Below are positions 438 to 32,384 of a stretch of DNA of 32,522 nucleotides, piece after piece. Source of the DNA: Spirochaetota bacterium (GTDB lineage: Bacteria; Spirochaetota; Spirochaetia; DTKZ01); assembly GCA_026418195.1 (NCBI GenBank), contig JAOABU010000052.1, positions 1 through 32,522 of the forward strand. Reading direction: 5' to 3'. How positions within the stretch are numbered: the stretch's first letter is position 1; each line of letters begins with the position of its first letter. The notes beneath the pieces are model-generated. The model saw only the letters and a program-made list of their open reading frames with translations. It was not told where the DNA came from and ran no database searches. A program made the position numbers and the translations under genes.

Positions 438-2120
438 ATGAAAACGAATCAATTAAACCCAAGTACGATTGTATCTTTATGTAAAGAGATCCTTCGTAGA
501 AATGCAGGACGACCCCAGTATGCAACCCTCACAGTGCGAGAACTATTAGCGGCAACAGGGGTAAATCCGAATGTTGATCCAGAACTACAATCAATACTGG
601 CTGAACTCACCAGGGATCAGCCTCAAGAAACCCTCTCGTTAGAACAAACTCTTCCCATCGATACTTCTCCGGAAGAACAATTTCGAAAGGAAATCATTGA
701 TTTCTACATTCCCAAGCAACTGGTAGACGCTATTATTGCGAATGGAGGAATTCCAAAAGATTCCATAGAAACGCAGATTGGGGTCGGGTTCATCGATGTA
801 GCCGACTATACCTTTCTTGCGAAGTTCTTGAGCCCCAAGGAAAACCAGATTCTTCTAAACGGCCTGTACACTGCCTTCGCCAACATCCTGAAAAAACATG
901 GTGGATATTTGAACAAAACCGAAGGGGATTCCATCATGTTCCATTTTGGGGGGCTGATCGATCCCAAAGTAAAGAATTTGAGCCATAAGGAAGCCCTACA
1001 ATACATAAGTTCAGAGCTTTTCTATACCTGTGTGGAGATGCAGAAAACCTGTGACTTGTTTAATGAAGCGAACCCAGCTTTGATTGATCAGCTCATCGAA
1101 ACAGAAGAAAAAGAGGCAGTAAAAGCTGCCTTTCAAATCATTCACTTTATGAGAAACGATTCAGTCTTGGCCAACTCTTTCAACGCCCTGTTCCAGATCC
1201 GAATCCGAATTGGAGCCAACATTGGAGAAGTAAGCATAGGGAACTTCGGCCCGCCGGGGAACAAGCGTTGGGATGTCATTGGTATCGCTGTCATCGATGC
1301 GAAGCGAATGGAATCTACGGCTCCCATCGGAGGATTGAGGATTTCCGAAGCCTTTTACAATATTCTAAACGAAAACGGAATTGTGGACAAATATTACAAG
1401 GAGTTTAAAGCCGAAGCAGAACGGAAGGGTGGATACTTCAAGGAAATAACAAAAGATGAATTGTTTCATTTCAGTTCCGTGATTCTGAAGGACAAAAAGA
1501 ATGTCACTTTTCGTACTTATTCTGTCCAGGTAAACCCATCTTTACCCGAATCCATTCAGGAGCAGATAGGGTTGCTCCTCTATAAAGGCGACATTGGTGC
1601 TGAGAAAATCGTCGAATTAGTGCAGTACTACAGAGGCAACCGACATGTAATTCGTGCCATCGAAGATTTGTTCCAGAAGAAGAATATATTCATTCGAAAG
1701 GGAAAGATCATCTTCTACATGTTTCCGAAACGATACAGACAATTCGTACACAGGATGGAGAACGACCCGAATAAATTCGAATCCTATGCGCAACGGAAAT
1801 ACCAATTATTCGATCTGATGCGAGCCTTAGGGAATTACCAGGATCAGTTAAAGCTTCCCCCACGGACCTTTGAACAAAGCACTGTATTCCGAACCTATGA
1901 TCAATATATGAATGCTGAAATTCAGCACATCAATTACCAGTACAAGCGGACCATTCGAAATGCTATCCATAACACATACTTCTTTAATGTGATTTTCCCC
2001 TTAGTCTTTAAGTCAATCAAAGCAAGCATATTGGAGTACCAGCTAGCCAAACAGAAGGAAACCGCTCCTCTTACTTTAGAAGAGGAGGAAGAAACATTAG
2101 AAGAGATCCAAGCAGTGTGA
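438..2120 (+). CDS. Class III adenylate/guanylate cyclase-domain protein
   Basis: This 560-residue soluble protein has a class III nucleotidyl cyclase domain at about residues 115-310. Visible active-site elements are D120 in GFIDVADYT (first metal ligand), D164 in NKTEGDSIMF (second metal ligand), K160 and D279 (adenine-contact positions, suggesting ATP) and R290 in AKRMEST (transition-state Arg). The usual transition-state Asn of the VN-x3-R motif is Ile286, followed by Asp287, so activity is uncertain. Flanking the domain are an N-terminal helical region (1-114) and a long C-terminal region (365-560) with no recognised domain and an acidic tail. No membrane segment is seen. The ribosome site is a weak AAGG about ten bases upstream. 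It converges on the gene ending at 2135 with a 14-bp gap. It would make cAMP if active; otherwise it may be a degenerate regulatory domain. Confidence 0.85.
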   Translation: MKTNQLNPSTIVSLCKEILRRNAGRPQYATLTVRELLAATGVNPNVDPELQSILAELTRDQPQETLSLEQTLPIDTSPEEQFRKEIIDFYIPKQLVDAIIANGGIPKDSIETQIGVGFIDVADYTFLAKFLSPKENQILLNGLYTAFANILKKHGGYLNKTEGDSIMFHFGGLIDPKVKNLSHKEALQYISSELFYTCVEMQKTCDLFNEANPALIDQLIETEEKEAVKAAFQIIHFMRNDSVLANSFNALFQIRIRIGANIGEVSIGNFGPPGNKRWDVIGIAVIDAKRMESTAPIGGLRISEAFYNILNENGIVDKYYKEFKAEAERKGGYFKEITKDELFHFSSVILKDKKNVTFRTYSVQVNPSLPESIQEQIGLLLYKGDIGAEKIVELVQYYRGNRHVIRAIEDLFQKKNIFIRKGKIIFYMFPKRYRQFVHRMENDPNKFESYAQRKYQLFDLMRALGNYQDQLKLPPRTFEQSTVFRTYDQYMNAEIQHINYQYKRTIRNAIHNTYFFNVIFPLVFKSIKASILEYQLAKQKETAPLTLEEEEETLEEIQAV

Positions 2121-2134
2121 TGGTTGATTGCTAT

Positions 2135-5059
2135 CTATCCTTTATGATTGGCAACTTCCATGATTTTTGGTGCAAGGAATAAAGCTCTCAACTCTTCCAG
2201 AGAAATGCCTATCTTCGTTGCCAATAACACTATCCCCTTCTCGCCTCCATCTATATAAGGGATACAGAGGGGCACCAAATCTTTCACAATGTTTTTTACA
2301 GAGGGATCTACACAAAATTCTTCTATCAGCGAAAACGGATACCGTATACGCAGGATGGATCCATAATTACGGAACATTCTTGCGAAATAGGGACCGTCTT
2401 CCAATTGAAAACCTTGTATAACCGTTTGGGGGAATCCCACGGAATATATTACCGAATACATGCTTTCATTTTTTCGCAATACTTGGCAGATAGGTGAGGA
2501 AAAGATCTGAGACAGTCGAACTAGAGCTTTATGGATCCCCGTTTCATCTCTTTTATAATTCCTGAAATACTGATTCAATAAGAAATAACCGTCTTCCGTA
2601 ATGTATGGTTCTACAATGGGATTTACTTGCGTTAGGGCTCCTTCCGTATGTTCCTTCTGCAAGGATTCCTCTTCTTTAGGGATCTCTCCAAAAATATCCT
2701 CCAAGGATACTTCAATCCCCTCAAAAAGATCTTCTATGCCTTTCTCTTCTGAACCCGAGTAGGTCTGTTCCCTTTCAGCACCTTTCACTACCTGATCTAC
2801 TAACCCTTTCAAGGTTTGATCCTTAGGTACCCATTCGGTTGAGAAAGTTCTTTCATCGATTTGAATGATTCCGTCGGGTTTTGTAACAATCACTTGATCC
2901 TGCTGTTCCGTCTTCTCTTCGTCCAATGTAGTTGAAGCACCCAATTCCAGATACTCGAAATACCCTTCTTCATAGAGGTTAACTAGCGAAACCGTTCCCG
3001 ATAGGGTACGTTTCCCTGTTAAACGAGGAATTGAGGCCCCTCCAAATAGATGCTTGGTTAGGAGAATTTCTCGCCGAGAAGGGAAAGTTTTTTCAGATGG
3101 TTTGGCGAAAACCTCGGTATCGCCCTCTTGAAGCTCCTCCAAGATTCCCCAATCTTCTGCTTCTTCAAGTAGTTCCACTTCTTCCGCTTCTTTCGCTTCT
3201 TCAACTTTTTCAATTTCTGCTATTTGATCGACTGCCACCCCCATTTCTCGGGTTTCCATTGACATACCAGGGCGAATCTCAAGTGCTTCGACGGCAGGAA
3301 GGGTCTCTACTTCTTCGGGTTCCTCGACTTCAGAGGGGGTAGAGACTTCTTCTACTGCCTCGATTTCCTCAAGTTTTTCAAGCTCCTCGATAAGTTCGGC
3401 CTCTTCTATTTCCTCTAGCTCTTCAACCTCTTTTACCCCTTCACCCCTACTAGCTGCCTCAACTTCCTCGGCCTCTTCAACCTCTTCCACTGCTTCAACT
3501 TCTTCAACCTCTTCAGCCTCTGAAATATCTTCAACTTCAATAGCTTCTTCGATCTCTACTACTTCTTCTGCAGCTTCTTCCAGTTCCTCTGCTTCTTCTA
3601 ATTCTCTAACTTCTTCGAGGGGGACTGCTTCCTCAGCTTCTTCGACCGACTCCACCTCCTCGAGTTCCTCTACTTCTTCTGACTCCTTCAGCTCTTTCCC
3701 TTCTCCTACCTTTTCCATTTGGGGTACTGTGGAGGGAATTGTTCTTCCTGCAGCTTTAGAAATCTTAACTTCCTCTTGTTGCTCAGTTGGAATAGGGGCT
3801 TGAGTAACTGTAATTTTCTGTAACGCTCGTTCGATTAATTCAGTCAACCGGTTCAAGTCTACTGCAGGAGATGTGGCTTGAGCTTTGTTTCCTATTACTG
3901 TCAGGATCTCATCCCAGCTCTTATCAAATAAAGATTCGAGTGTCGTTTTATCCTCTTTTTTAACTCTCCCAACTCCCTTGAGAATTTCGCTCTTCACTTC
4001 TTCCCGCCGACTCTCGAGTTCCAGTTGAATCTTTTTCCAATCAATTTCCTGATTACGCTCTAGGTATTCCCACAAAAGGTGAAGTTGTAACTTCTTGATT
4101 CGTTCACTGACAACTAACACAGGCTCTTGCTTTAGATTAAAGATAAGGAAAAAAAGTAAAAATAGGGTGATGAAGGTACAGACAAAAATAATCCCCTTCA
4201 ACGTCGTACTCAGCCCAAAAAGACTTGCTGGTTGGAACAATCCAATCTTCAAGAAGGTTGTAGGTTTACTCTCAAAAAAACGAAAAGCTTCACCGTTCTC
4301 CAGTACGAAATATGGAACTTCAGAACTACTTCCCATCCAGTACTTCTGAAGGGACTCCAATATCTGACTAGTTAGATATTGAGCCTTCAGGACGATTCCC
4401 ACTCCATCTACAAACTCAATGGTATCTCCTAAACTAAGGTCGCCATTCTTTAAAAGATAATTCTGTAGACCAAGCTTCCCCACATAGAACAGAGCATACC
4501 CTGCATGTTTCGCGTAGATATCGAAGGCTTTGAAACAGTAGATAAAAGAATTAGCCCCTGGATGGAGAATAATAGGCTCTTCAGCCGCTTTTTTCTTCAA
4601 TGTTTCCAGGAAAGTACCCGTTTCTACATCCTTCAAGTTTCGAAGTTCTATATTCGTACCTGTTTTTCTGAGCACATCTTCTGGGAACGTGCTAAAATGT
4701 ATTCGTTCAATATTGAGATCGACAAATCGAACCCCTGAAAATCCTGTCTGCTCAGCTGCAAGTTTACCGAACAGACTCTCCCGGTTAAAAATATGCTCAC
4801 GGCTTTGATTTAAAAAATAAATTGTCTTAATGAAATCCATCTCCATGATGGATTTATACTTTTCGGTATGTATTCGTAAATATTGCGAGACATGCTCACC
4901 AGTTCTTTCAAGAGTCCTTTGTATAGTTTCCTGTACCTTCACATTATAGAAATGTGTTTCCAGGTATTCAAACAATCCGAAATAAGCAGCAAAAACAAAT
5001 CCGGTGAAAGCGATGATGGTCAAGAGCAAGCTAAGGAAGAGTTTCTGAACAGAACTCAT
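2135..5059 (-). CDS. Membrane-anchored putative sensor protein with a long Glu-rich repeat tract
   Basis: I do not recognise a named family for this 974-residue protein. Visible order: membrane segment (about 6-28); extracytoplasmic region (about 29-285) beginning with long helices and including GFSGVRFVDLN, reminiscent of Cache sensor domains; second membrane segment (about 289-308); charged helical region (315-415); extremely Glu-rich tract (about 458-640) of repeated EEVEE, EELEE and EEAEE units; less biased linker; and a compact C-terminal region (about 815-974) with LVPLCIPYIDGGEKGIVLL that might be GAF-like. No kinase, cyclase, GGDEF or methyl-accepting motif is visible. The start ATG has AGGAG ten bases upstream. 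The gene follows the rplQ terminator, so it is likely a separate transcription unit. Domain names are inference. Confidence 0.8.
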   Translation of the reverse strand: MSSVQKLFLSLLLTIIAFTGFVFAAYFGLFEYLETHFYNVKVQETIQRTLERTGEHVSQYLRIHTEKYKSIMEMDFIKTIYFLNQSREHIFNRESLFGKLAAEQTGFSGVRFVDLNIERIHFSTFPEDVLRKTGTNIELRNLKDVETGTFLETLKKKAAEEPIILHPGANSFIYCFKAFDIYAKHAGYALFYVGKLGLQNYLLKNGDLSLGDTIEFVDGVGIVLKAQYLTSQILESLQKYWMGSSSEVPYFVLENGEAFRFFESKPTTFLKIGLFQPASLFGLSTTLKGIIFVCTFITLFLLFFLIFNLKQEPVLVVSERIKKLQLHLLWEYLERNQEIDWKKIQLELESRREEVKSEILKGVGRVKKEDKTTLESLFDKSWDEILTVIGNKAQATSPAVDLNRLTELIERALQKITVTQAPIPTEQQEEVKISKAAGRTIPSTVPQMEKVGEGKELKESEEVEELEEVESVEEAEEAVPLEEVRELEEAEELEEAAEEVVEIEEAIEVEDISEAEEVEEVEAVEEVEEAEEVEAASRGEGVKEVEELEEIEEAELIEELEKLEEIEAVEEVSTPSEVEEPEEVETLPAVEALEIRPGMSMETREMGVAVDQIAEIEKVEEAKEAEEVELLEEAEDWGILEELQEGDTEVFAKPSEKTFPSRREILLTKHLFGGASIPRLTGKRTLSGTVSLVNLYEEGYFEYLELGASTTLDEEKTEQQDQVIVTKPDGIIQIDERTFSTEWVPKDQTLKGLVDQVVKGAEREQTYSGSEEKGIEDLFEGIEVSLEDIFGEIPKEEESLQKEHTEGALTQVNPIVEPYITEDGYFLLNQYFRNYKRDETGIHKALVRLSQIFSSPICQVLRKNESMYSVIYSVGFPQTVIQGFQLEDGPYFARMFRNYGSILRIRYPFSLIEEFCVDPSVKNIVKDLVPLCIPYIDGGEKGIVLLATKIGISLEELRALFLAPKIMEVANHKG
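3139..3689 (-). repeat. Glu-rich coding repeat tract
   Basis: On the minus strand this encodes residues about 458-640 of the membrane protein, dominated by GAA/GAG with GTT, GCT, CTT and GCA codons in imperfect short units such as EEVEELEEVE. The DNA is correspondingly purine-rich on the coding strand. The units are degenerate rather than exact, so it is a low-complexity protein segment rather than a perfect tandem repeat. Confidence 0.8.
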
Positions 5060-5127: not shown

Positions 5128-5155
5128 AAAAAAAGCCACCATACTGGTGGCTTTT
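5128..5155 (-). terminator. Intrinsic terminator ending the ribosomal protein operon
   Basis: A perfect 10-bp stem (AAAAGCCACC at 5131-5140 with GGTGGCTTTT at 5146-5155) encloses a 5-nt loop. On the minus strand it is followed by further Ts, giving a TTTTTTT tract. It lies 21 bases after the rplQ stop codon and closes the long S10-spc-alpha run. Confidence 0.92.
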
Positions 5156-8232: not shown

Positions 8233-9555
8233 TTATAGGTTCCTCGATCGAATCCTTCCCTTCTTTACAAGTCCTTCATGATGATGCATTTTTAGATGCC
8301 CCTCGATTTGGGACATGGTATCCAAGTCAACACCTACCATGATTAGCAATGAGGTTCCTCCCATCAAGTACGCTAAGTCCGTCGGGAAGTGAAAGAGCTT
8401 CTGCACAATGGTAGGTATGATGGCAATGAATGCTAAGAATAATGATCCTGGGAGTATAATACGATTCAATACTTTGGTAAAGTATTCTTCCATCTTTTCA
8501 GATCGTATTCCAGGTATGGATCCACCGTTTTCCCGAATATTTTTCGATATTTCTATAGGATTCAGGGAAACCTGGGTATAGAAATAAGCAAAGAAGATAA
8601 TCAATAGGGTGTAAAGAACCAAGTACGGTACTCCATCAGGACGGAGCCAATAGGCAAAATCGGAAAGCCACTTTACTTGCGCTCCGATGTTACCCGCAAT
8701 TTGTAGAGGGAACGTCAGTACCGACGAAGCGAAAATTACCGGAATGACCCCTGAGGGGTTGATCTTGAAAGGAATATAGGTGTTCTGGGCTCCGTACATT
8801 TTCCTTCCAACCACTCGTTTTGCATAATGGACTGGGATTTTCCGTTGTCCTTGCTGCTCGATGATCACCAAGGCTACTACGATGATGAACATGATGAACA
8901 CAACCAGGACAAATACCGGATTCAATTCTCTCATTTGGATTTTTTTGAGTAGGTTGTATAACGCATCAGGGAGCCTTGCTACGATTCCCGCAAATATCAA
9001 GAGAGAAATCCCATTCCCAATTCCCCGCTGGGTGATCTGTTCTCCCATCCACATAAGGAAAATCGTTCCAGTGGTCACCGTTAACATGGCAATCAATGAA
9101 TAGGAGAGTTTCCCCATGGTAATGGCATCGGGAATTCGATCTGCGTATACAGTGACGGCATAGGACTGGATAAGACACACTAATACGGTCCCATACCGGG
9201 TGTATCGATGGATTTTTTTTCGTCCTCCCTCTTCTTCGGAGAGCTTCTTCAAACTGGGAAAGACAAGAAGTAAAAGTTGCATAATAATAGACATGGAAAT
9301 GTACGGCATGATTCCCAGCATGAAAATCGAAAAGTTCTTGAACGCTCCTCCCGCAAAGAAATCAAGATAATCCGTTAAGGAGAGCCCGCCAGCCGATTCC
9401 TGGGCTATAAAATAGAGTTTCAACGCATTTACATTGATCCCGGGAATGGGCAATGTAGCTCCCAACCGAAATACGATCAGCATCACGAAGGTAAAAAAGA
9501 TTCGTTGTCGAAGTTCTTTGATACGGAAGATATCTAGTAGAGCGTTATTGGCCAT
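8233..9555 (-). CDS. secY: Preprotein translocase subunit SecY
   Basis: SecY forms the protein-conducting channel of the inner membrane with SecE, whose gene lies at 31732-31911. The 440-residue protein has about ten hydrophobic segments. Recognisable blocks are RLGATLPIPGIN near the N-terminus (first membrane helix and plug region), QRGIGNGISLLIFAGI mid-protein, and the cytoplasmic loop NPIEISKNIRENGGSIPGIR that contacts SecA and ribosomes. The C-terminus GLVKKGRIRSRNL is basic. It follows rplO by 10 nt. Confidence 0.98.
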   Translation of the reverse strand: MANNALLDIFRIKELRQRIFFTFVMLIVFRLGATLPIPGINVNALKLYFIAQESAGGLSLTDYLDFFAGGAFKNFSIFMLGIMPYISMSIIMQLLLLVFPSLKKLSEEEGGRKKIHRYTRYGTVLVCLIQSYAVTVYADRIPDAITMGKLSYSLIAMLTVTTGTIFLMWMGEQITQRGIGNGISLLIFAGIVARLPDALYNLLKKIQMRELNPVFVLVVFIMFIIVVALVIIEQQGQRKIPVHYAKRVVGRKMYGAQNTYIPFKINPSGVIPVIFASSVLTFPLQIAGNIGAQVKWLSDFAYWLRPDGVPYLVLYTLLIIFFAYFYTQVSLNPIEISKNIRENGGSIPGIRSEKMEEYFTKVLNRIILPGSLFLAFIAIIPTIVQKLFHFPTDLAYLMGGTSLLIMVGVDLDTMSQIEGHLKMHHHEGLVKKGRIRSRNL

Positions 9556-9565
9556 CAGATCGTTC

Positions 9566-10021
9566 CTATTCGTTAGAAGATTCTTTTATTTCGCCACCAC
9601 TTTGTAGGATTTTCTCCTTGGCCCCCTCAGAAATAGGGAGTCCTTCGAATACTAGCTTCTTGTGGAGTTCGCCTTTACCTAAAATCTTTACATTTATTGC
9701 CCTAGCTTTTACGATTCCTTTTTCTTTCAAGGATTGTAGGGTTACTAATTCTCCTTCTTGATATTTAGCATCGATGAGGTCAAGATTTACAGGTACCGCT
9801 TCGAGCTTAAAAGGATAATTGGAGAACCCTCTCCTAGCGATTCTCCGATACAAAGGCATCTGCCCACCTTCGAAACCTGGTCGGACTCCTCCTCCCGCCC
9901 TAGCGTTCTGTCCCTTATTTCCTTTACCGGCAGTCTTTTGTAGTCTCGTTCCTGAACCGCGCCCTACAATTTTTTTCTTTTTTTTCGAACCTTTTGGGGC
10001 CTTAAGGGTATACTGTTCCAT
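9566..10021 (-). CDS. rplO: 50S ribosomal protein L15
   Basis: L15 is a late-assembling large-subunit protein that spans several 23S rRNA domains. The 151-residue product has the Gly-rich basic N-terminal extension (VGRGSGTRLQKTAGKGNKGQNARAGG in two stretches) and then FEGGQMPLYRRIARRGF. I chose ATG at 10021, eleven bases after GAGGAG and giving MEQYTLKAP. A TTG two codons upstream would overlap rpmD by 4 nt and is possible. It precedes secY by 10 nt. Confidence 0.97.
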   Translation of the reverse strand: MEQYTLKAPKGSKKKKKIVGRGSGTRLQKTAGKGNKGQNARAGGGVRPGFEGGQMPLYRRIARRGFSNYPFKLEAVPVNLDLIDAKYQEGELVTLQSLKEKGIVKARAINVKILGKGELHKKLVFEGLPISEGAKEKILQSGGEIKESSNE

Positions 10022-10023
10022 AC

Positions 10024-10209
10024 TCAATCGATCTCCTCAACTTCGAGCATGTATTGGATCTGCTTGATCATTCCCAATATTGCTGGATCCTTTTTCTTTA
10101 TGACCACCGAGTTTAACTTCCTTAAACCTAAAGCTTTCGCAGTTAACCGATGGGAAGGCTTTCTACCAATCGTACTTTTTACCAGCTTGATTCTTAGTTT
10201 GTCACCCAT
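10024..10209 (-). CDS. rpmD: 50S ribosomal protein L30
   Basis: This 61-residue protein has the L30 signature KLRIKLVKSTIGRKPSHRLTA and the conserved LGLRKLNSVV turn. L30 is a small ferredoxin-like-fold protein of the large subunit, found in most but not all bacteria. It starts 4 nt after the rpsE stop and ends 2 nt before the preferred rplO start. Confidence 0.97.
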   Translation of the reverse strand: MGDKLRIKLVKSTIGRKPSHRLTAKALGLRKLNSVVIKKKDPAILGMIKQIQYMLEVEEID

Positions 10210-10213
10210 CTTG

Positions 10214-10717
10214 CTAACCCCACACTTCGTTTAAAGATTTTCCTCTATTTTTTGCAATGACTTTCGCATCTAAAAGATGCTCCAAGCCATGAAAAACTGC
10301 TTTTACGGTATTGATAGGATTCCTAGATCCCATGGCTTTGGTTAATACATCGTTTACTCCACAGGCGTCCAGAACAGCACGTACCACGCCTCCCGCAATG
10401 ACTCCTGTTCCAGGTGCAGCAGGTTTCATCACAACTCTTGAACTTTTGAACCTTCCAATATAAGGATGGGGTAAGGTGTTGTGTTTGATGGGAACCTCGA
10501 TCATGTTCCTCTTTGCTTTCTCCATGCCTTTGCGAATTGCTTCGGATACATCATTCGCTTTTCCAAAGCCATATCCTACTCGACCGTTTCTGTCACCTAC
10601 TACTACAAGAGCGGAGAAAGAAAATCTTCTTCCTCCTTTCACTACCTTAGCAACTCGGTTGAGTGAAATGAGCTTCTCAAGAAACTCTTTACCTCTAAGA
10701 CCTTTATCTTGATCCAC
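10214..10717 (-). CDS. rpsE: 30S ribosomal protein S5
   Basis: S5 helps keep decoding accurate and guards the mRNA entry side of the 30S subunit. The 167-residue protein has the dsRNA-binding-like N-terminal half with [18 protein letters not shown] and [17 protein letters not shown], and a C-terminal half with [19 protein letters not shown]. The start codon is GTG at 10717, five bases after GGAGG. It lies between rplR and rpmD in usual spc order. Confidence 0.98.
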
Positions 10718-10726
10718 GAATCCCTC

Positions 10727-11086
10727 CTAAAACTCCAAACCAGCTTTTCTGGCACCTTCAGCCACCGCTTTAACGATTCCGTGGTACAGATATCCGTTTC
10801 GATCGAACACCACAGAGTGAATATTCAGCTTTTTTGTCCGTTCACCAATGATTTGCCCTAATTTTTCCGCATTGGAAACATTGTTTCTCATGTCTCTAAA
10901 TTCCTTTTCTAAGGAAGAGACAGATGCTAACGTATGGCCTTTTGTGTCATCGATCACCTGTATATAGAGATGTTTATTGCTCCGATACACAGTGAGTCTA
11001 GGACGAGTAGGCGTTCCAAATATTTTCGCCTTTACCCTAAGTTTTCGTTTTGCCCTTTGGATCTTCTTAAGTTCTAATCTATTCAT
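10727..11086 (-). CDS. rplR: 50S ribosomal protein L18
   Basis: L18 binds 5S rRNA and links it to the central protuberance with L5. The 119-residue protein has a basic N-terminus, the family block RPRLTVYRSNKHLYIQVIDD and the C-terminal FDRNGYLYHGIVKAVAEGARKAGLEF. Length is normal. It is 9 nt from both rplF and rpsE. Confidence 0.98.
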   Translation of the reverse strand: MNRLELKKIQRAKRKLRVKAKIFGTPTRPRLTVYRSNKHLYIQVIDDTKGHTLASVSSLEKEFRDMRNNVSNAEKLGQIIGERTKKLNIHSVVFDRNGYLYHGIVKAVAEGARKAGLEF

Positions 11087-11095
11087 TTGTTGACC

Positions 11096-11635
11096 CTACT
11101 TTACACCTGATTTCCCAACTTTCCTTCGAACCTGTTCTGTCTCGTACTTTATTCCCTTTGCTTTATAGGGTTCTACAGGTCGAATAGACCGTATTTCTGC
11201 AGCCACCTGTCCGACTTTTTCTTTGCTGCTACCACTTACGGTAATTTTAGTCTGCCCTTCACACTCGACCTTTATATCCGGTGGGACAGTATAGATCACA
11301 GGAGCAGAGTAACCCATGTTCAGAACAAGGTCTTTCCCTTGCATTTCCGCCCTATACCCTACCCCGTTGATTACCAAGGATTTTTTAAACCCTTCCGTAA
11401 CACCAATGATCATATTCTTGATCAGGTTCCTATACAGACCATGGAGTGCTTTTGTCTTCTTCTGTTCGTTTTTTCTAATAACCTTACAGATTCCCCCTTC
11501 AATTTGCACCTCCACATCACCGTTATATGGTTGTTGGAGTTTACCCTTAGGCCCTTCCACGAAGATAATATTCTGTTCCACCTTCACTTTGACCCCTGGG
11601 GGTATAGGAATGGGCAATCTTCCAATTCTTGACAT
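11096..11635 (-). CDS. rplF: 50S ribosomal protein L6
   Basis: L6 sits near the sarcin-ricin loop and factor-binding site. The 179-residue protein starts MSRIGRLPIPIPPGVKV and ends with the conserved EPYKAKGIKYETEQVRRK block. Two tandem L6 folds are expected at about 1-80 and 85-175. GAGAGG upstream of ATG gives the ribosome site. It is 12 nt from rpsH. Confidence 0.98.
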   Translation of the reverse strand: MSRIGRLPIPIPPGVKVKVEQNIIFVEGPKGKLQQPYNGDVEVQIEGGICKVIRKNEQKKTKALHGLYRNLIKNMIIGVTEGFKKSLVINGVGYRAEMQGKDLVLNMGYSAPVIYTVPPDIKVECEGQTKITVSGSSKEKVGQVAAEIRSIRPVEPYKAKGIKYETEQVRRKVGKSGVK

Positions 11636-11647
11636 GTGTCTACCTCT

Positions 11648-12046
11648 CTACCAAACGGAACAAATTAATTCACCACCAACCTTTTTCTCCATGGCTTTCT
11701 TTCCCGTGGTAACCCCTTGGGAGGTGGATACGATTAACGTTCCATACCCATTCAGAACTCGGGGCATTTCACGGTACCCAGCATACACTCTTCGTCCAGG
11801 TGTAGAGATCTTTTGAAGACCATGGATAATAGGGTTCTGTTTTTCATCATACTTCAAGAAAATCCGGATGTAGCTCAAATTATCTTGGTTTACCTTTTTA
11901 AAATTCTTTATGTATCCTTCATTCTTGAGTATCTTCACGATTTCCAATTTCATCTTGGAAGTTGGTATATCAACCTTTTCGAAACGCGCTGCACTGGCAT
12001 TTCGAATTTTTGTCAACATATCCGCAATGGGATCGGAACAATTCAT
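11648..12046 (-). CDS. rpsH: 30S ribosomal protein S8
   Basis: S8 binds the central domain of 16S rRNA early in assembly. In E. coli it is the translational repressor of the spc operon. The 132-residue protein has [14 protein letters not shown] at the N-terminus and [20 protein letters not shown] near the end, finishing in CSVW. Spacing to rpsN is 10 nt. A repressor-binding structure near rplE was not identified. Confidence 0.98.
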
Positions 12047-12056
12047 ACTCTTCTCC

Positions 12057-12242
12057 CTACCAACTAGATTTCGTTACACCGGGTATTAAACCTTGATGAG
12101 CAAGCTTCCGAAAACAAAGCCTACACATCTGAAACTTTCTTATATACCCTCTTGGTCGTCCACAGAGTTTACACCGATTTACCTTTCTAGTGCTGTATTT
12201 TGGCTTCTTTAAAGCCTTTACGATCATTGCTTTTCTTGCCAT
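12057..12242 (-). CDS. rpsN: 30S ribosomal protein S14, type Z
   Basis: This 61-residue short form of S14 keeps the zinc-binding cysteines C24, C27, C40 and C43 in [21 protein letters not shown] and ends [13 protein letters not shown]. The type Z form (also called rpsZ) is the zinc-containing version rather than the longer cysteine-free one. S14 is in the 30S head, contacting S3 and S10. It lies 14 nt after rplE. Confidence 0.98.
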
Positions 12243-12256
12243 TATCCCTCACCCCA

Positions 12257-12814
12257 TTATTTTCTAAACGGCATTCCAAGTTTTGCCAGAAGACTCTTCG
12301 CTTCCATATCGTTCTTTGCTGTTGTCACGATGGTGACATTCATTCCAGAAACTTGTTCTATAGTATCGTAGTCTATTTCAGGGAAAATAATTTGCTCAGT
12401 TATTCCTAAAGAGAAATTTCCATGCCCATCAAATCCATTGGGGTTCACACCTCTAAAATCCTTTACCCGTGGAAGCGCTACGTTCACCAATCGATCAAAA
12501 AACTCGTACATATAGTTTCCTCTGAGGGTAACCTTCGCTCCAATTTCCTGACCTTTTCGGACCTTGAAGTTTGCAATGGACTTCCGTGCCTTTGTCTTAA
12601 TAGCCTTTTGTCCTGTAATTTGGGTAAGTTCGGATACGGCGGAGTCTAATAGTTTTTTATTCGTAATAGCTTCTCCAATGCCAACACTTACCACTATTTT
12701 TTCCAGCTTGGGAACCTGCATAGGGCTCTTGTATCCAAACTCTTGGAATAACTCCTGTGCAACCTTTTCACGGTATAATTTCTTTATTCTCGGTTCGTAG
12801 GTTTGTTTTGCCAT
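12257..12814 (-). CDS. rplE: 50S ribosomal protein L5
   Basis: L5 binds 5S rRNA and contacts P-site tRNA and S13. The 185-residue protein begins [14 protein letters not shown] and contains [29 protein letters not shown] and [19 protein letters not shown] chose the ATG at 12814, which shares one base with the rplX stop (TAATG) and has GGAGAGG upstream. A start six codons earlier would only extend into rplX. The one-base overlap indicates translational coupling. Confidence 0.97.
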
Positions 12815-31964: not shown

Positions 31965-32038
31965 CAGGCCAGGTAGGATTCGAACCTACAACATTCGGTT
32001 TTGGAGACCGACGCTCTAGCCGTTGGAGCTACTGGCCT
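31965..32038 (-). tRNA. trnW: tRNA-Trp (anticodon CCA)
   Basis: The minus strand folds as a full cloverleaf of 74 nt: acceptor AGGCCAG with CTGGCCT, D stem GCTC/GAGC, anticodon stem TCGGT/ACCGA with loop CTCCAAA (anticodon CCA), and T arm GTAGG-TTCGAAT-CCTAC. The discriminator is G and the 3' CCA is not encoded. It lies between rpmG and secE, the common bacterial place. A 6-bp hairpin (31947-31952 with 31958-31963) follows it. Confidence 0.97.
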
Positions 32039-32311: not shown

Positions 32312-32384
32312 AGCCCCCGACCGGATTCGAACCGGTGACCCCCACCTTACCATGGTGGTGCTCTACCGACTGAGCTACAAGGGC
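32312..32384 (-). tRNA. trnT: tRNA-Thr (anticodon GGT)
   Basis: The minus strand folds as a 73-nt cloverleaf: acceptor GCCCTTG with CGGGGGC (two G-U pairs), D stem GCTC/GAGC, anticodon stem CCACC/GGTGG with loop ATGGTAA (anticodon GGT), and T arm ACCGG-TTCGAAT-CCGGT. The discriminator is U and the 3' CCA is not encoded. It is the most upstream gene of this strand in the window. Confidence 0.96.

Follow-up and report, generated by a model that had tools for sequence, protein, structure and literature searches.

The window analysed here is a stretch of 32,522 nucleotides from a Spirochaetota bacterium (contig JAOABU010000052.1 of assembly GCA_026418195.1), whose genome amounts to 3.13 Mb in 158 contigs. 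ORF reading and comparison with relatives place a frame of 974 amino acids with an ATG start at 2135..5059 on the minus strand, which encodes the candidate sensor-scaffold protein discussed below. The plus-strand reading of the same interval is riddled with stops. The initial annotation had described a large two-pass membrane protein at this place with no strand given, and its residue numbers agree with the minus-strand protein; the frame is real, as a relative of the same genus matches it in two stretches, with identities of 74% and 68%. Upstream lies rplQ, the end of a ribosomal protein cluster, and the gene starts 117 bases downstream of it. Between them, at 5131..5155 (minus strand), the terminator scan picked out a T-run hairpin of terminator-like form. 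Taken by itself, the scan has no significance (three such sites in the scanned stretch versus 3.8 expected in shuffles), and it is from position and stem that a real terminator is plausible. Since this hairpin separates the gene from rplQ, the gene is probably transcribed on its own in this genome. The convergent neighbour (438-2120, plus strand) encodes an adenylate/guanylate cyclase domain (PF00211, E = 9.7e-16), and such a neighbour adjoins the gene only in the close relatives at loci L022 and L026. At the far end of the window, two tRNA genes were identified with Rfam upstream of nusG (31965-32038 and 32312-32384, minus strand).

Regarding the layout of the protein, the two membrane segments proposed earlier at about residues 6-28 and 289-308 coincide with hydropathy peaks at about 3-33 and 279-318 (19-residue windows). 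The first segment (residues 6-28; 4976..5044, minus strand, as are all the following features) includes conserved residues, M1, K6, S10, L11 and G28 being nearly invariant among 20 aligned sequences. It is followed by an extracytoplasmic domain (residues 29-288; 4196..4975), the second membrane segment (residues 289-308; 4136..4195) and a juxtamembrane block which is conserved in the alignments (residues 309-395, ERIKKLQ...DKSWDEI; 3875..4135) and which is probably helical, as it appears in a low-confidence model. The rest of the cytoplasmic part contains an acidic tract (residues 459-640; 3140..3685), a conserved motif region (residues 719-767, DGIIQI...KGLVDQVV; 2759..2905) and a C-terminal region (residues 815-974; 2138..2617).

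The family, its domain make-up, the triplet tract, the motif, the neighbourhood and the distribution were all established by computation. With the single sequence as query, 26 of 41 genomes proved to contain relatives, and a profile built from 20 N-terminal parts detected the family in 205 of the class's 394 genomes (in 142 of the 279 of good quality). One hundred regions were taken from the listed matches, mostly one per genus and several from the treponeme family, and 90 frames with an N-terminal match were read among them. The common plan consists of a membrane helix, an outer domain, a second membrane helix, the juxtamembrane block, the acidic tract and a short motif, to which many members add a C-terminal domain. 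One copy (L029 of genome G038, 9089-12286) is split into two frames of 102 and 893 amino acids with one in-frame TAA reported, and it is possibly a pseudogene or an assembly error. No characterised family was found for the protein in the Pfam, NCBIfam and PDB sequences searched, and the PDB sequence searches gave nothing significant for it. Hence the cautious label of an uncharacterised signalling or scaffold protein stands, and this spirochaete family is both widespread and unannotated. A match to ABC2_membrane_3 (E = 0.0025, below the cut-off) was rejected, as a scan restricted to the N-terminal 416 residues no longer listed it.

A homologue in a T. pallidum-like genome shares the dCache and juxtamembrane part (E = 1.4e-85) and carries a C-terminal LVDSVL motif. 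It is probably Treponema pallidum TP0593, judging partly from its place beside TP0594 as given in the excerpt of PMC12687308. Compared with the protein of the window, it is a frame of 677 residues with a short, weak acidic tract and no GAF domain. Searches of the open literature for TP0593 and its name variants found no paper, and those on related topics found none on the sensor-scaffold protein among the papers listed.

The outer domain adopts, according to the profiles, a divergent dCache fold, in line with the Cache-like topology suggested in the initial annotation. Pfam dCache_1 (PF02743) matched 19 of 89 members (E ≤ 1, best 2.6e-9), any other listed family matching at most four. The hhalign comparison of the family profile with 19 dCache domains of relatives gave a probability of 95.3% (E = 2.4e-8), against at most 0.6% for 100 column-shuffled targets and 0.2% for the C-terminal domain compared with the same target. 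The N-terminal part of the window protein itself has no Pfam match, dCache_1 included, and the AlphaFold model of the outer part, built from a two-row alignment, is poor (mean pLDDT 40). The pattern RxW[YF], which we take to be part of the amino-acid ligand motif of dCache_1AA sensors, was absent from the window protein in a pattern search and present in just 2 of the 89 members; therefore, the domain would likely bind a ligand other than the amino acids of that type. As in the dCache_1 receptors (chemoreceptors, kinases and cyclases), two membrane helices flank a double-Cache-like periplasmic domain of about 260 residues; in contrast to them, the protein has no HAMP, MCP, kinase, GGDEF or cyclase output.

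The Glu-rich tract of about 180 residues, first noticed as EEVEE-like repeats, shows a hydrophobic-E-E pattern with a period of three, and 88 Glu are found in residues 445-680 (236 residues). Its most acidic 60-residue stretch has a net charge of -32, compared with -6 at the median and -17 at the 99th percentile of 848 neighbouring ORFs of at least 150 amino acids, a background that was called mechanically and includes some ORFs that are not genes. Within residues 459-640, hydrophobic pairs at lag 3 number 50 versus 27 expected, with recurrence at lags 3, 6, 9 and so on. Among the complete members, 77 of 82 lie above the 99th percentile of background acidity (the weakest tracts being those of L026, L076, L105, L146 and L138), lag 3 or 6 is the strongest of lags 1-7 in 77 of 83, and the lag-3 z-score of the most acidic 90 residues exceeds 3 in 65 of 83. 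Thus, the tract keeps its charge and its period while letters and length vary, and this series is natural material on the function of hydrophobic-Glu-Glu repeats. Coiled coils have periods of 3.5-3.67, and a period of exactly three is unsuited to them; the tract is probably extended and polyproline-II-like.

Alternatively, the tract might simply have arisen through slippage of triplet DNA of the GAA/GAG type and have no function of its own. The DNA of the tract in the window does contain imperfect 9- and 36-base tandem arrays, and three intact proteins of one treponeme genus (L147, L103 and L038) range from 739 to 785 residues in length. However, the conservation of acidity just described extends over many families despite their differing letters, and this explanation seems very unlikely.

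At the cytoplasmic end, the 32 complete members which lack a GAF domain mostly terminate in 'DGVFxI...DFKxLVDSVL', the clear exceptions being L131 and L139, which hold N stretches, and the treponeme copies likewise stop at this motif. A profile of these GAF-less ends recognised the motif ahead of the GAF domain in 30 of 53 GAF-bearing sequences (i-Evalue < 0.01), a set that includes three distant, non-scoring proteins of another class. In the window protein the match falls at residues 719-767 (i-Evalue 2e-6), the counterpart of 'DGVFxI...DFKALVDSVL'.

The initial annotation saw a compact C-terminal region and no output domain. This holds for enzymes, and the compact region turned out to be a divergent GAF domain (PF13185/PF01590): the family profile reached a probability of 92.7% (E = 4.3e-7) in hhalign against 29 GAF_2 domains of relatives, with at most 0.9% for column-shuffled targets. 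GAF_2 (PF13185) is also the commonest Pfam match of this region (5 of 51 members). At E ≤ 1, the PDB search yielded two sequences only, the PDE2A chain 1mc0 and the PtsP chain 3ci6 (E = 0.023 and 0.077), which are presumably both GAF structures. The family resembles these GAF domains in its profile and in the order of helices and strands, which fits GAF even in a poor AlphaFold model (mean pLDDT 37.5), and differs from them in the weak E-values of its single sequences (best 0.016). A fold search with this poor model gave no match at E ≤ 0.001; 3e0y at rank 1 and NreA 4iuh at rank 3 are, we assume, GAF proteins and were not counted as evidence. Concerning enzymatic or chemotactic outputs, neither family matches nor pattern signatures were found in the protein for kinase, GGDEF, EAL, HD-GYP or MCP, its single E-A-L tripeptide falls inside the acidic tract, and the HAMP or signalling hairpin of methyl-accepting chemotaxis proteins was found neither by Pfam nor by pattern. 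An architecture of dCache domain, two helices, acidic tether and GAF or motif end with no enzyme is well supported.

The distribution of the family was compared with that of flagella. Flagellin_N was detected in 281 of the 394 genomes: 201 carriers of the protein have flagellin and four do not, 80 flagellated genomes are non-carriers and 109 genomes have neither. The four exceptional carriers are G168 (81% complete), G301 (57% complete) and the weak f9 matches in G188 (E = 5.8e-4) and G230 (E = 6.8e-6). Thirty-six of the 80 flagellated non-carriers belong to f20, a probably Borrelia-like lineage in which none of the 36 listed flagellated genomes has a detectable copy, and the others are incomplete assemblies or members of further lineages. 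Since flagellated f20 genomes lack a copy, the protein is no general requirement for flagella in spirochaetes. On an RNase Y tree of 51 genomes, whose flagellin-less members came from the 20 listed of 113, flagella change three times and the sensor part is absent each time, never the reverse; genomes are not independent, and three pairs in a tree-based sign test cannot reach significance. The presence of the protein itself changes seven times on the same tree. The protein tends to be missing from spirochaetes which no longer have flagella.

The position of the treponemal cytoplasmic filament protein CfpA (TP0748) in G082 was established from its coordinate, its length and its residue 31 as published in the excerpt of PMC3373638. 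It is strikingly conserved, most listed full-length matches being about 60-85% identical. CfpA was found in 154 of the 394 genomes, 132 of them shared with the 205 carriers, and it is also nearly absent from flagellin-less genomes, with one exception (57% complete); these counts speak for the protein as the membrane anchor of the filament. Nevertheless, CfpA was not detected in 73 carriers, nor was a copy of the protein in 22 genomes with CfpA; anchoring is not supported as a general role, and we regard it as highly improbable.

The gene neighbourhood points in another direction. Among 86 loci with enough sequence, 49 have rplQ on the same strand no more than 1.5 kb upstream, and rny follows at a distance of up to 600 bases at 26 of 79; according to Pfam, the downstream genes encode RNase Y, YmdB and FtsJ. 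A second class of the phylum has proteins with a GAF-like end, partly with an N-terminal match, which also precede rny, with no rplQ seen upstream. Another class (f53, presumably Brachyspira-like) contains acidic triplet proteins that share this GAF-like end, and their loci (L078 2185-3672, L083, L217, L219 and L231) adjoin an ORF of about 88 residues and a gene for an M24 peptidase. Between rplQ and the gene, one clade (f29, f32, f37 and f39) has an ORF of about 200 residues (L094 7542-8147; similar in L096, L097, L117, L118, L119, L128, L129 and L130), and the one that was tested, of 201 residues, had no Pfam match. Two of the three flagellar losses, in f10 and f12, left a remnant with motif and GAF beside rny. 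In f12, the rplQ-rny site holds a protein of 262-281 residues with motif and GAF and without sensor or membrane part; in f10, that of G075 is 382 residues long, lacks the sensor and retains a membrane hairpin, the motif and GAF, and G017 shows a GAF match at the same site.

These associations could mean that the protein regulates RNA metabolism or tethers it at the membrane; its acidic tract would imitate RNA and draw RNase Y, ribosomes or basic ribosomal proteins to the membrane. This role is kept as a reading because the motif-GAF end persists beside rny where the sensor was lost, and the link to rny holds in the second class even where rplQ is not seen. However, RNase Y was found in all 25 genomes tested, those without the protein included, the treponeme copies sit at other loci, and rplQ is mostly directly ahead of rny in f3 and f18 genomes; with the two genes simply adjacent in lineages without the protein, its place may be inherited gene order. 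We consider such a role unlikely. As for the earlier suggestion that the tract binds ribosomal proteins, nothing beyond the gene neighbourhood speaks for it, and the linkage to rny is as strong.

The same remnants bear on a further alternative, an orphan transmembrane receptor in which the GAF domain would be the real output, binding a nucleotide or small molecule and reporting to one dedicated partner, with the tract as a mere spacer. dCache and GAF are both sensor folds, and in the two aflagellate lineages it is GAF and motif that outlive sensor and tract. On the other hand, the 32 complete members without GAF keep the motif and mostly the tract, so GAF is not a universal output, and this alternative appears possible, if rather unlikely.

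The order of the kinds of parts, which is like that of HubP/FimV, together with the absence where flagella were lost, leads us to take a signal-responsive scaffold as the most likely explanation. The protein would be a spirochaete-specific, non-enzymatic sensor-scaffold of the inner membrane, working by analogy like HubP/FimV though unrelated to them, and we give this reading a probability of roughly 40%. The divergent dCache domain would read a ligand or the envelope state in the periplasm, and the two membrane helices and the conserved helical block would relay the change inwards. The long, charged hydrophobic-Glu-Glu tether, probably extended, would hold the docking motif, plus GAF in most lineages, in the cytoplasm, where client proteins may be gathered. 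Such a hub could serve a task in flagellated cells, namely placing or tuning the machinery of motility or of the cell envelope. Ligand binding, client recruitment, the hub role and the location in the cell are the parts of the sensor-scaffold that we infer. Against it stand the 80 flagellated genomes without a copy, a sign test of three pairs, the seven changes of presence, the poor AlphaFold models (mean pLDDT 40 and 37.5) with no significant fold match, the weak tracts of the five loci named above, and a neighbourhood (rplQ, rny, ymdB and ftsJ) that points to RNA metabolism.

A bolder version would make the protein a membrane hub peculiar to spirochaetes and gated by signals, with no sequence relationship to HubP, FimV or PopZ. 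Its Cache sensor would switch a polyanionic tether, either an extended brush of three residues per turn or a condensate, that gathers the machinery of motility and possibly that of RNA decay; flagellar loss would free the cell to discard sensor and tether, and the motif-GAF end may persist beside rny. As a whole, we regard this picture as speculative and unlikely.

Roughly half of the genomes sampled from one spirochaete class, an apparent Treponema pallidum genome among them, contain a member of this family, and the curated Pfam and NCBIfam models searched hold nothing for it beyond weak dCache and GAF similarity. Regarding known systems, the protein has no sequence match to the polar landmark proteins HubP/FimV, no LysM match listed in Pfam and no NCBIfam match to the C-terminal FimV (TPR) domain. 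The excerpt of PMC12918733 describes HubP/FimV as consisting of a periplasmic LysM-like domain, a membrane region, an acidic cytoplasmic domain and a C-terminal FimV domain, and FimV of P. putida as contributing to swimming and to the placement of the chemotaxis system. Unlike them, the protein has two membrane helices, its outer domain is dCache rather than LysM, and a GAF domain or the motif alone stands where they carry the FimV TPR domain. It resembles them, as far as that excerpt describes them, in its periplasmic domain, its membrane anchor followed by a long acidic cytoplasmic region, its small C-terminal domain and its link to flagellar motility. If a hub linked to motility or the envelope is true, it would be the spirochaete counterpart of HubP/FimV, and the organisation of cell ends and envelope in these bacteria would become testable through it.
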